From: an uncultured Elusimicrobia bacterium
GTDB taxonomy: Bacteria > Elusimicrobiota > Elusimicrobia > UBA1565 > UBA9628
Assembly (NCBI GenBank): GCA_903830945.1
Contig: CAIKVT010000024.1
Coordinates: 1-64,000 of the forward strand
Direction of reading: 5' to 3'
Length of the DNA: 64,000 nucleotides
In this document: piece after piece, positions 7,455-9,850 of the stretch
Layout of the letters: each line of letters starts with the position of its first letter
Position numbering within the stretch: the stretch's first letter is position 1
Translations under genes and position numbers: made by a program
The notes under the pieces: model-generated
Told to the model about the DNA's origin: nothing
Databases searched by the model: none
The model's input: only the letters and a program-made list of their open reading frames with translations

Positions 7455-7483
7455 TTGACAGAATAGGTCTTTTGACCTACAAT
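7455..7483 (+). promoter_or_regulatory. sigma-70-type promoter of the mraZ/dcw operon
   Basis: TTGACA at 7455-7460 is a consensus -35 hexamer. TACAAT at 7478-7483 is a near-consensus -10, and the spacer is exactly 17 bp. The predicted transcript starts near 7490, giving a leader of about 58 nt that contains the MraZ operator. A 10-bp palindrome (CCCAATTGGG, 7443-7452) abuts the -35 on its upstream side. Confidence 0.85.
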
Positions 7484-7492
7484 CTAGCTCCC

Positions 7493-7540
7493 AGTGGGGA
7501 AAAGTGGAAATGAGTGGAATGAGATGTAGAAAAGTGGGAG
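7493..7540 (+). promoter_or_regulatory. MraZ operator: five GTGG-type repeats at 10-bp spacing
   Basis: Five direct repeats share GTGGRAA-like cores, with their T at 7495, 7505, 7515, 7525 and 7535, exactly 10 bp apart. The fourth, GATGTAG, is degenerate. MraZ proteins are known to bind TGGG- or AAAGTG-type repeats with 10-bp periodicity upstream of their own gene. The array lies between the -10 and the mraZ start. Its last repeat (AGTGGGAG) also serves as the ribosome binding site, so bound MraZ would sit across the initiation region. Confidence 0.85.
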
Positions 7541-7547
7541 AATACGC

Positions 7548-7997
7548 GTGACCCTGCTCATCGGCCGCTACGAATACGCCCTCGACGACAAGAACCGCCT
7601 GGGCATCCCGCCCAAGTACCGGGAGATGCTCACGCAGGAGAAGGCCAAGAGCGTCTTCGTCACCAGCGGCAGAGAAGGCTGCCTCTACTTCTATCTCCCC
7701 TCACAATGGAACCAGCTCGTGACCAACAATATGCAGGCCTTCTCCATGCCGGACAAGGAGAAGGAGCGCGCCGTCAAGCGCAAGTTCTTCTCTGAAGCCG
7801 CCGAACTCGAGCTCGACAGCGCGGGGCGCATACTCGTACCCCAGTATCTCAAAGTCCACGCGGGCCTCAAGAGCCAGGTCCTGATGCAGGGCGCCGGCGA
7901 CCGGGCGGAGATATGGGACAGCCGCCGCTGGCAGACCTACGAGAAATCAAAGATCGAACCGGCCTACCGCTCGGTCAGCAAGAGCATCGAGCTATGA
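7548..7997 (+). CDS. mraZ: transcriptional regulator MraZ
   Basis: A DNA-binding regulator of the division and cell wall cluster. The 149 aa contain two SpoVT/AbrB-like halves: the first begins LIGRYEYALDDKNRLGIPPKYREML, and the second contains ELDSAGRILVPQYLKVHAGL. The second half carries the conserved D-x-x-G-R-I pattern. Translation starts at GTG with GGGAG 7 nt upstream. The gene is first in the operon, under a consensus promoter with its own operator repeats. Its stop overlaps rsmH by ATGA. Confidence 0.97.
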   Translation: MTLLIGRYEYALDDKNRLGIPPKYREMLTQEKAKSVFVTSGREGCLYFYLPSQWNQLVTNNMQAFSMPDKEKERAVKRKFFSEAAELELDSAGRILVPQYLKVHAGLKSQVLMQGAGDRAEIWDSRRWQTYEKSKIEPAYRSVSKSIEL

Positions 7998-8932
7998 CCA
8001 CCACTTTGGAGCGTCCGGTCTTCCTGATCAGAGAACCTATGGAATACGAACACGAACCCGTCCTTCTCGAAGAGGTGCTGCGCTATCTCATCAGCGAGAC
8101 TGCGGGCTTCTATCTGGACGCGACCCTGGGCCTCGGCGGCCACGCCGAGGCCATCCTGCGCAAGATATCGGCCCAAGGCAGGCTCCTGGGATTGGACATG
8201 GACCCCGAGGCCTTACACGCCGCCGGAGAGCGGCTGAAGGCCCACCCCGGGCAATTCCGGGCGGTCCGCGCCAACTTCCGCACCTTGGGCCAAGTTTTAG
8301 AGGCGGAGAAGTTCTTCCCCTTGGCCGGAGCCCTCTTCGACCTAGGGGTCAGCTCCATGCACTTCGATAAGCCCGAGCGCGGCTTCAGCTTCGCCCTCGA
8401 GGGCCCTCTTGATATGAGACTCTCGCCGGATAACACCCTGACCGCCGGCATGATCGTGAACAACTGGCCCGCGGAGCAGCTGGCGCTCCTGTTCAAGGAG
8501 TTCGGCGAGGAGCCCGCGGCCAACCACATCGCACGCGCCATCGCTCAACGCCGCCAGGAGCGCCCCTTTGCGACCACCACCGAGCTGGCCGGCTACATCG
8601 CGGGACTCCTCCCGCGCGGCCGGACCCATGCGGCGACGCGGACCTTCATGGCGCTGCGCATCGCGGTCAACGCGGAGCTCGAGAACCTCACCCGCGGCCT
8701 GGAAAGCGTCCTGCCCTATCTGATGCAGGGCGGCCGCATCGCGGTCATTAGCTTCCATTCTCTCGAAGACCGCATCGTCAAAAACATCTTCTCCTCATTC
8801 GTTGAGCAAGGCGTTTGCAGATATCTAGATAGCGCGGGGGGCAAGTCCGCACTCACACCCTCGGTCGAAGAAGTAGCCCGGAACCCCCGGGCGCGCAGCG
8901 CAAAACTCAGGATCGTGGAGAAACTCTCATGA
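7994..8932 (+). CDS. rsmH: 16S rRNA (cytosine-N4) methyltransferase RsmH
   Basis: RsmH methylates N4 of 16S rRNA C1402 using SAM. It is 312 aa from ATG 7994, which overlaps the mraZ stop. A later in-frame ATG at 8039 (MEYEHEPVLLEEV) is the alternative and matches typical N-termini. Motifs include FYLDATLGLGGHAEAIL (SAM binding), ALFDLGVSSMHFDKPERGFSF, and the C-terminal RIAVISFHSLEDRIVKN. The gene is in its standard position after mraZ. The stop overlaps the following 58-aa ORF as ATGA. Confidence 0.97.
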   Translation: MTTTLERPVFLIREPMEYEHEPVLLEEVLRYLISETAGFYLDATLGLGGHAEAILRKISAQGRLLGLDMDPEALHAAGERLKAHPGQFRAVRANFRTLGQVLEAEKFFPLAGALFDLGVSSMHFDKPERGFSFALEGPLDMRLSPDNTLTAGMIVNNWPAEQLALLFKEFGEEPAANHIARAIAQRRQERPFATTTELAGYIAGLLPRGRTHAATRTFMALRIAVNAELENLTRGLESVLPYLMQGGRIAVISFHSLEDRIVKNIFSSFVEQGVCRYLDSAGGKSALTPSVEEVARNPRARSAKLRIVEKLS

Positions 8933-9105
8933 AAAGCCAAGCAGCGTTGAGCGGTTCGTCCTTCGGTCTAGCTGCGGTCATGCGTCTCGACAACACCGTA
9001 GGTTTTCTACAAGACCGGGAGGAGACGATAGATATCGCACCCATCGTCCCGATCGGCAATTCCGGCTATATCTGGCGCAAGGCATTCCACAGGAGGTGCG
9101 CTTAG
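8929..9105 (+). CDS. 58-aa hypothetical ORF between rsmH and ftsL
   Basis: A short reading frame starts at ATG 8929, overlapping the rsmH stop as ATGA, and ends at TAG 9103-9105, eight bases before the hairpin array. The product begins MKSQAALSGSSFGLAAVM and ends WRKAFHRRCA. It has no obvious TM segment and no family I recognise. The coupled start argues that it is translated. It may be a genuine small protein, or the remains of an original ftsL 5' end separated from the rest by the repeat array. It is not in the ftsL frame. Confidence 0.4.
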   Translation: MKSQAALSGSSFGLAAVMRLDNTVGFLQDREETIDIAPIVPIGNSGYIWRKAFHRRCA

Positions 9106-9112
9106 CAACGTT

Positions 9113-9371
9113 TTGGCGGGCGCCCACTCGGCGGGGCGCCTGCCAACGATCTGGCGGGGACTCACTCGGCGGAGTCCTCGCCAAAGATATGGTGGGGGCC
9201 CACTCGGCGGGGTCCCCACCAAAGATCTGGCGGGGACTCACTCGGCGGGGTCCTCGCCAAAGATATGGTGGGGCCCACTCGGCGGGGTCCCCACCAAAGA
9301 TCTGGCGGGGACTCACTCGGCGGGGTCCTCGCCAAAGATATGGTGGGGGCCCACTCGGCGGGGCTCCCACC
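9113..9371 (+). repeat. array of seven tandem hairpins between rsmH and ftsL
   Basis: Seven imperfect palindromes start at 9113, 9152, 9190, 9228, 9266, 9303 and 9341, a period of 37-39 bp. Each has the identical 10-nt loop CACTCGGCGG flanked by 10-12 bp stems. Units 2, 4 and 6 have a TGGCGGGGACT-type 5' arm, and units 3, 5 and 7 a TGGTGGGG(G)CC arm. The 3' arms change to match, so pairing is kept, with a few G-T pairs. Unit 1 has a third stem (TTGGCGGGCGCC). Spacers are 5-6 nt and alternate AAGATA and AAGATC. No stop codons interrupt two of the forward frames. There is no Cas gene, and nothing resembles unique CRISPR spacers. Confidence 0.93.
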
Positions 9372-9436
9372 GAGGATTTAGAGTTAATGGTAGAATGTTT
9401 CTGGCCTCCGCCAGCGCAATTGCAGCGGAGCCTCTC

Positions 9437-9850
9437 GTGAGTCAACGTCTGCATGCAGATACCCAACGGCGCCGAGTCTATTGGTTCGTCGCTACCGGGA
9501 TATTCCTGATGGCCCTGGTCTGGCAACACGTCGAGGCCACCCGTCTGGGCTACCGCGTCGAAAGCGCCCGGCAGCATATCCTCGCCATACGGTGCTCCAA
9601 CGGGGCATTGCGCATGCAGCTGGAAACCATACTATCCCCGGCCAATCTTGCCGCCCAAGCCAGGGGCCGTCTGGGCATGACGCTGGCCACGCCGCAGTCT
9701 TTTCGCAGCAGCGACGCAACGACCGCCACGACGTCACGGACAGGCTTTCTTTACCGCCTGATCTCGCGGACGCGCCGCACCTTGCGGGAGTGGAAAACAC
9801 TCACCCTCCAGGCACGCCGCCTCCCAAGGCGCCGCTCACTCACAGGCTGA
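9437..9850 (+). CDS. ftsL: cell division protein FtsL-like
   Basis: A small bitopic division protein that, in known systems, joins FtsB/FtsQ and activates FtsWI. This 137-aa product has a cytoplasmic stretch, one TM segment (VYWFVATGIFLMALVWQHV, about residues 18-36) and a periplasmic coiled-coil-like part. The periplasmic part includes LETILSPANLAAQARGRLGM, a pattern common in FtsL. GTG 9437 is chosen because GGAG lies 6 nt upstream. ATG 9395 is a possible earlier start, and the frame stays open back through the hairpin array to 9113. Assignment rests on topology and position between rsmH and ftsI. Confidence 0.82.
   Translation: MSQRLHADTQRRRVYWFVATGIFLMALVWQHVEATRLGYRVESARQHILAIRCSNGALRMQLETILSPANLAAQARGRLGMTLATPQSFRSSDATTATTSRTGFLYRLISRTRRTLREWKTLTLQARRLPRRRSLTG

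Follow-up and report, generated by a model that had tools for sequence, protein, structure and literature searches.

The REP/BIME sequences, such as those between malE and malF, are tandem stable intercistronic hairpins with possible roles in 3′-end protection and differential expression; REPs are dispersed, conserved in their stem sequence and linked to RAYT. Several structured RNAs described in bacteria share one or another property with the locus studied here. The mraW RNA motif (RF01746) is a candidate structured cis RNA of Actinobacteria (PMC2864571) that lies in the 5′ region of mraW and is transcribed in Corynebacterium (PMC5784534). The STAXI motif is a small RNA structure found in tandem, usually in three copies, that has a pseudoknot and UUCG loops and lies near DNA-manipulation genes (PMC2864571), and the ANTAR/EutV antiterminator consists of two hairpins whose hexanucleotide loops carry A1 and G4 and which overlap an intrinsic terminator (PMC3369931). 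Within the division operon itself, the decRNAs of E. coli are stable RNA fragments that come from inside genes (PMC6156199), and the Burkholderia dcw operon has been described as one long message with no predicted internal terminator (PMC7761207).

Here, we have analysed a stretch of 64,000 nucleotides from an uncultured Elusimicrobia bacterium (the window), in which an array of seven hairpins lies at positions 9113-9371 of the forward strand. The sequence CACTCGGCGG occurs there in seven exact copies on the forward strand, at 9125, 9163, 9201, 9239, 9276, 9314 and 9352, the last of which ends at 9361. The spacings are 38, 38, 38, 37, 38 and 38 bp, so that the repeat period given in the first-pass annotation (37-39 bp) is right except for its upper value. 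When folded singly, every unit forms a hairpin of 11-13 bp (-22 to -28 kcal/mol, z = -2.8 to -4.9), with one bulge in unit 5, and the whole 341-nt region has a minimum free energy of -202 kcal/mol (z = -9.1), which bears out the earlier description of seven tandem hairpins with an invariant loop. The loop itself is shorter than the 10 nt first claimed: the terminal C and G of CACTCGGCGG pair with each other and leave 8 nt, ACUCGGCG, closed by a C-G pair, for which U-G is also found in relatives.

All seven units are on the forward strand. Unit 1 (9114-9145), composed of TGGCGGGCGCC-CACTCGGCGG-GGCGCCTGCCA, gives the top match in the genome (51.2 bits) to R1, the covariance model that we built of a single unit, and is the probable ortholog of the lone hairpin of other genera. 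Units 2 (9152-9183), 4 (9228-9259) and 6 (9303-9334) have stems of the C-G type, and units 3 (9190-9221), 5 (9266-9296) and 7 (9341-9371) stems of the T-A type; the bulged unit 5 is one base shorter and scores 36.2 bits with R1. That the alternation of the two stem types is real, as first described, is seen from Tandem Repeats Finder (TRF), which reports a period of 76 (93% match) beside one of 38 (81% match). The alternation is missing in relatives, e.g. G001, and is a local duplication of a 76-bp dimer, not a general rule; the proposed growth of the array from two paired units therefore applies to the window genome but not to relatives at large. Recent homogenisation of units can be seen, e.g. 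in the identical units 5-7 of G001 and in the 76-bp dimer of G000. The array is open in three frames because the unit has no stop codons, and it is not coding.

The assignments of the neighbouring genes agree with the location between rsmH and ftsL that was first given. The upstream cistron, rsmH (7985-8932, forward strand), matches TIGR00006 with E = 5e-86. The downstream cistron, ftsL (9437-9850, forward strand), likely starts at the GTG at 9437, with an ATG at 9386 as a possible alternative; it was called from its position, its size and a weak match to FtsL_Actino (E = 5e-6, under the cut-off), and its relatives share a conserved WQH[IV][QE]ATRLGY motif. The array is flanked on a larger scale by mraZ upstream and a gene for an FtsI/SpoVD-like transpeptidase downstream. 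At 7455-7537 on the forward strand, the mraZ promoter as read from the sequence (TTGACA at 7455, a 17-nt spacer and TACAAT at 7478) is followed by AGTGG repeats at 7493, 7503, 7513 and 7533, spaced by 10, 10 and 20 bp, which resemble MraZ boxes. MraZ was considered as a binder of the hairpins and rejected, as the stems are free in sequence and the window has no spaced pair of GTGGG.

The first description of this neighbourhood overlooked a conserved, unannotated ORF of 58 aa at 8929-9105 on the forward strand. Its ATG overlaps the stop codon of rsmH (ATGA), and it may be translationally coupled to rsmH. About 50 Elusimicrobiota genomes have it, as a single copy located at this junction, with differences concentrated at third codon positions, and its C-terminus reads GYIWRKAFHRR in the window and GYVWRRVFLKGK in relatives. 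A Pfam search with the small ORF gave no match, and structure prediction gave no confident fold (pLDDT 56). At the junctions of family f14 (L188, L190-L203 and L207), a related-looking ORF, MYPENIL...SPTKIFYLWEKHGIKRIELFSME, lies between rsmH and ftsL with no hairpins; judged by eye, its C-terminus FYLWEKH.IKRIELFSME resembles that of the small ORF, of which it is probably a distant homolog.

How widely the hairpins occur was first surveyed in 57 relatives, which were searched with the array and with RsmH before their junctions were read. The hairpin was found between rsmH and ftsL in most genomes of the window's family and order, and also in members of further families within the class. We then ran R1, the covariance-model search that the first-pass annotation had proposed, on 341 genomes of the phylum. 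There were matches at E ≤ 0.01 in 43 of them, and every strong match was at the rsmH-ftsL junction. Even the weak match in the AT-richer G064 (family f6) is located precisely at this junction. Together with junctions that the strict filters missed, the element is present in about 45 genomes, all of the named hairpin-bearing organisms being metagenome-assembled genomes, with about 145 units in a sample weighted toward the window's family. It occurs in at least six families (f1, the window's own, f2, f3, f4, f6 and f10), and the copy number at the junction, for which a comparison had likewise been suggested, varies from one to eight.

No convincing copy away from the rsmH-ftsL junction was found in any genome searched. 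In the window's own genome, the next R1 match after the array has E = 0.175, and there is no further copy. The candidates C1:8775 and C55:22694 match without a hairpin, G034:C110 is a partial hairpin off the junction, and the weak matches G225:C94, G229:C228, G007:C23 and G204:C195 lack the flanks and the position of the unit and look like chance. Matches to the pattern in actinobacteria (Nocardiopsis, Rugosimonospora) agree with nothing but the core used for the search and lack the long stem. The hairpin is absent from the five genomes of genus g6 and from those members of families f5, f7, f9, f12 and f14 that were sampled, and it is therefore dispensable over evolution. Comparison shows that the array is not private to the window genome and identifies it, at the level of sequence, as an old single-locus element of Elusimicrobiota, the phylum in which alone it appears to occur so far.

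To what extent pairing is kept was measured in an alignment of 41 distinct units, in which standard pairs fill 98.4% of the pair cells, compared with 75.0% after shuffling and 43-58% after sliding; since the units were picked for a CTCGGCG core and for pairing, these percentages are biased upward. Changes on both sides of a pair are not due to this choice, and they occur in 91 cells, compared with 17.9 in shuffles, and affect 10 of the 11 pairs. With one unit per genus from 12 genera, 99.2% of cells are paired and 16 are changed on both sides against 4.8, where the controls, here and above, are shuffles and slides without a correction for phylogeny. The loop behaves differently from the stem: CTCGGCGG is invariant across the 41-unit alignment, and in the wider set, which has the variants ACUCGGCG, UCUCGGCG, UUCGGCG, UCACGGCGC and GUCGGCGC, the core is mostly UCGGCG. 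By comparison, then, the element has a stem of 10-13 bp, free in sequence with its pairing kept, and an 8-nt loop with the near-invariant core (Y)UCGGCG. The suggestion that the structure is selected agrees well with these results, in that across many genera the homologous hairpins at this junction retain the loop and show covariation in the stem, and selection on the stem structure is strongly supported by the alignment. At the G020 junction (L063), the first hairpin past the small ORF has a perfect stem (GGCGGGTGG/CCACCCGCC) and has lost the conserved loop (AGAGGCCAA); it is a possible natural loop mutant.

The same observations speak to the idea that the array is a selfish or neutral tandem repeat, grown by slippage or of the REP/REPIN kind, or else an assembly artefact. 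The copy number of one to eight and the recent homogenisation of units would be expected of such a repeat, but a single locus is shared by dozens of independently assembled genomes, no copies are dispersed, the stems covary between genera, and transposases of the Y1/RAYT type are absent from the hairpin-bearing G004, G010, G017, G018 and G046. The conserved position and the covariation refute both a selfish repeat and an artefact, to which we leave almost no probability; that the unit might be confined to one genome or lack conserved pairing, as the first-pass annotation had allowed, is contradicted by the hairpins of the relatives.

An indication that the hairpin works in the mRNA came from its polarity. 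At the junctions, about 145 units are in the sense orientation and none is antisense. A G-U pair is tolerated in the sense RNA only; the mirrored A-C would be acceptable to an antisense RNA, and at the DNA level the two should be equally frequent. Inside the stems, imperfect pairs on the sense strand are G-U in 55 cases and A-C in 14, in a scan giving equal scores to G-T and A-C (binomial p about 7e-7, which overstates the evidence since related units were counted as independent). At the closing pair, the counts are 41 and 0, but the scan required this pair to be standard, so that only the interior counts are a fair test. The sense-only orientation and the excess of G-U over A-C suggest that the functional form is the mRNA strand, and the hairpin most likely acts as coding-strand RNA.

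Downstream of the array and ahead of ftsL, there is an extended -10 motif, TGGTAGAAT, at 9388-9396 on the forward strand (p = 0.004 against shuffles), which has no good -35. A motif of this kind (TGnTATAAT-like) is at the same place in most of the f1 genomes tested and is significant against shuffles in most of them singly, and it is a candidate internal promoter of ftsL; a stricter -35/-10 scan found nothing, and nothing like the extended -10 was seen at f2/f3 junctions. Because the motif is downstream of the array in f1, transcripts starting there would lack the array, and it is doubtful that all transcription of ftsL passes through the hairpins, as had been stated. The median copy number is 4 in genomes with the motif and 1 in those without it, although lineage and motif are confounded in this comparison. 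No intrinsic terminator, in which a U-tract comes after a GC-rich hairpin, was found within 9050-9500, and for want of a U-tract the array does not qualify as a terminator of the standard intrinsic kind.

The -10 motif in f1 raises the question of whether the units act as DNA, either as a cruciform or as a protein-binding array such as an operator of the ftsL promoter. The units are short, perfect inverted repeats around a constant 8-bp centre, recur with a period of 37-38 bp and in f1 lie close to this motif, which is what such an element might look like. However, all copies are oriented alike relative to the operon, the mismatches on the sense strand are G-U with few A-C, the free stem sequence leaves no duplex operator outside the loop, and the hairpin occurs without a promoter in f2/f3. 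We consider a DNA-level element, which the first-pass annotation had listed among candidate roles, very unlikely on account of the orientation and the G-U bias.

The position of the hairpins relative to their neighbours is fixed on one side only. Hairpin 1 begins 8 nt past the stop codon of the small ORF in the window, and 6-17 nt past it in 27 of the 32 genomes measured, whereas the gap before ftsL ranges from roughly 14 nt to far more than 100 nt. The order of parts is not the same everywhere: in G046 the small ORF comes after the hairpin and ahead of the next gene, in G052 and G064 the hairpin lies directly between rsmH and ftsL without a small ORF, and in f14 and g6 the small ORF is present without the hairpin. 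As each occurs without the other, it is unlikely that the product of the small ORF serves as a dedicated binder of the hairpin. Other hairpins are also found in the gap. The junction of G044 (L079) has a second, unrelated family with TCCCGAACCAACGCAGTCTGGATGTTCGAGACG-like repeats around the conserved hairpin, and G034, G035 and G043 (L085, L087 and L102) have a GC-rich inverted repeat, GGCCCCTCCCC...GGGGAGGGGCC, between the conserved hairpin and ftsL, from which the conserved loop is absent.

We argue, with about even confidence, that the array is an intercistronic RNA element that acts in cis and has been amplified in tandem, that a putative trans factor recognises its loop, and that it marks the boundary between mraZ-rsmH-small ORF and ftsL-ftsI-mur. 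The hairpins would work as RNA within the polycistronic mraZ-rsmH-small ORF-ftsL-ftsI message, the stem serving as a rigid presenter and the loop as the part recognised by a trans-acting protein or RNA. A ribosome leaving the small ORF would uncover hairpin 1, and the uncovered hairpins could keep the upstream mRNA's 3′ end in place, or else pause or attenuate transcription. As a result, rsmH with the small ORF and ftsL-ftsI-mur would be expressed at different levels, and the copy number would set the strength of the boundary. The separate extended -10 and the expanded array in the window's family fit a stronger boundary. This boundary or attenuator mechanism is an inference.

Would such a hairpin need its loop? 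A pure 3′-end barrier does not require a conserved loop, which counts against the boundary reading. In another proposal, the hairpins are passive 3′-end stabilisers between cistrons or U-less, Rho-assisted terminators, similar to the REP of malE-malF, and the loop is kept for hairpin stability only. The very stable GC-rich stems, their position just past a stop codon, the tandem copies and the unconserved stem sequence are all in line with this proposal. Against it, the 8-nt loop core is kept over families and GC contents as the stems diverge, the other terminator-like hairpins in the gap of G034, G035 and G043 do without the conserved loop, and this loop is neither a known stabilising tetraloop nor used again elsewhere in the genome. 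A purely passive role is therefore rather unlikely in our judgement.

Another weak point of the boundary reading is the layout in f2/f3 (e.g. G037, G039 and G041), G005 and G052, where only about 14-30 nt separate the end of the last hairpin from the ATG of ftsL and no promoter is seen in between; this layout is equally compatible with translational control of ftsL. In that case, a loop-specific protein attached to a hairpin near the start of ftsL would govern the initiation of ftsL(-ftsI) translation, and the direct apposition of hairpin and ftsL in G052 and G064 would be readily understood. On the other hand, many f1 arrays are tens of nucleotides or more away from the ftsL start with the -10 motif between them, and in G046 the small ORF intervenes. 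Control from the 5′ leader strikes us as rather unlikely.

Returning to the boundary reading, we looked for a partner of the loop in the operon and found no conserved complementary site, so that pairing of the loop with an operon target was rejected. A more specific version, which we put forward tentatively, is that a dedicated RNA-binding regulator reads (Y)UCGGCG and that the copy-tunable array sets the ratio of RsmH and the small protein to FtsL-FtsI. If this is true, division genes would be controlled at the RNA level with a dose that evolves through tandem duplication. In broader terms, the hairpins are probably an RNA switch or a boundary mark between division genes. An RNA element that covaries strongly, has a near-invariant loop and is placed exactly at rsmH-ftsL, at one locus per genome, points through its loop to a putative new binding factor, and its copy number of one to eight offers a natural test of how expression within the division operon depends on RNA structure.

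We would like to point out how the element differs from the systems introduced above. A search of 4227 Rfam families gave none above its gathering threshold, and the best hits are chance matches (e.g. 40.1 against 268). The mraW RNA motif is likewise a candidate structured RNA that acts in cis within the mraZ-mraW(rsmH)-fts cluster, but it belongs to the mraW 5′ region of Actinobacteria, while the present element lies past rsmH and mraW was not matched in the Rfam search. With the decRNAs the element has in common stable structured RNA pieces within the same operon; those are excised inside enterobacterial coding regions and form no tandem hairpins, and we know of no motif that the two share. 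STAXI, too, is a small RNA structure repeated in tandem, but it is a pseudoknot that carries UUCG loops and occurs close to genes for DNA manipulation, and it found no match here. The ANTAR target also has tandem hairpins with conserved loop bases to be read and stems that are free yet paired, although the loop here is the 8-nt ACUCGGCG instead of a hexaloop, the copies number one to eight and there is no terminator. A search for the ANTAR domain (PF03861) gave no match in the window's own genome, nor in the control genomes. REP/BIME sequences are alike in being tandem stable hairpins between cistrons, but the element has a single locus, free stems, a fixed loop and no dependence on RAYT, and the dispersed copies and the conserved, RAYT-mobilised stem of REP/REPIN are not found. 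What it does have are the covarying stem and the syntenic position of a structured cis-acting RNA, and on sequence grounds it is a new family of intercistronic cis-acting RNA, unusual in its tandem, loop-invariant form.
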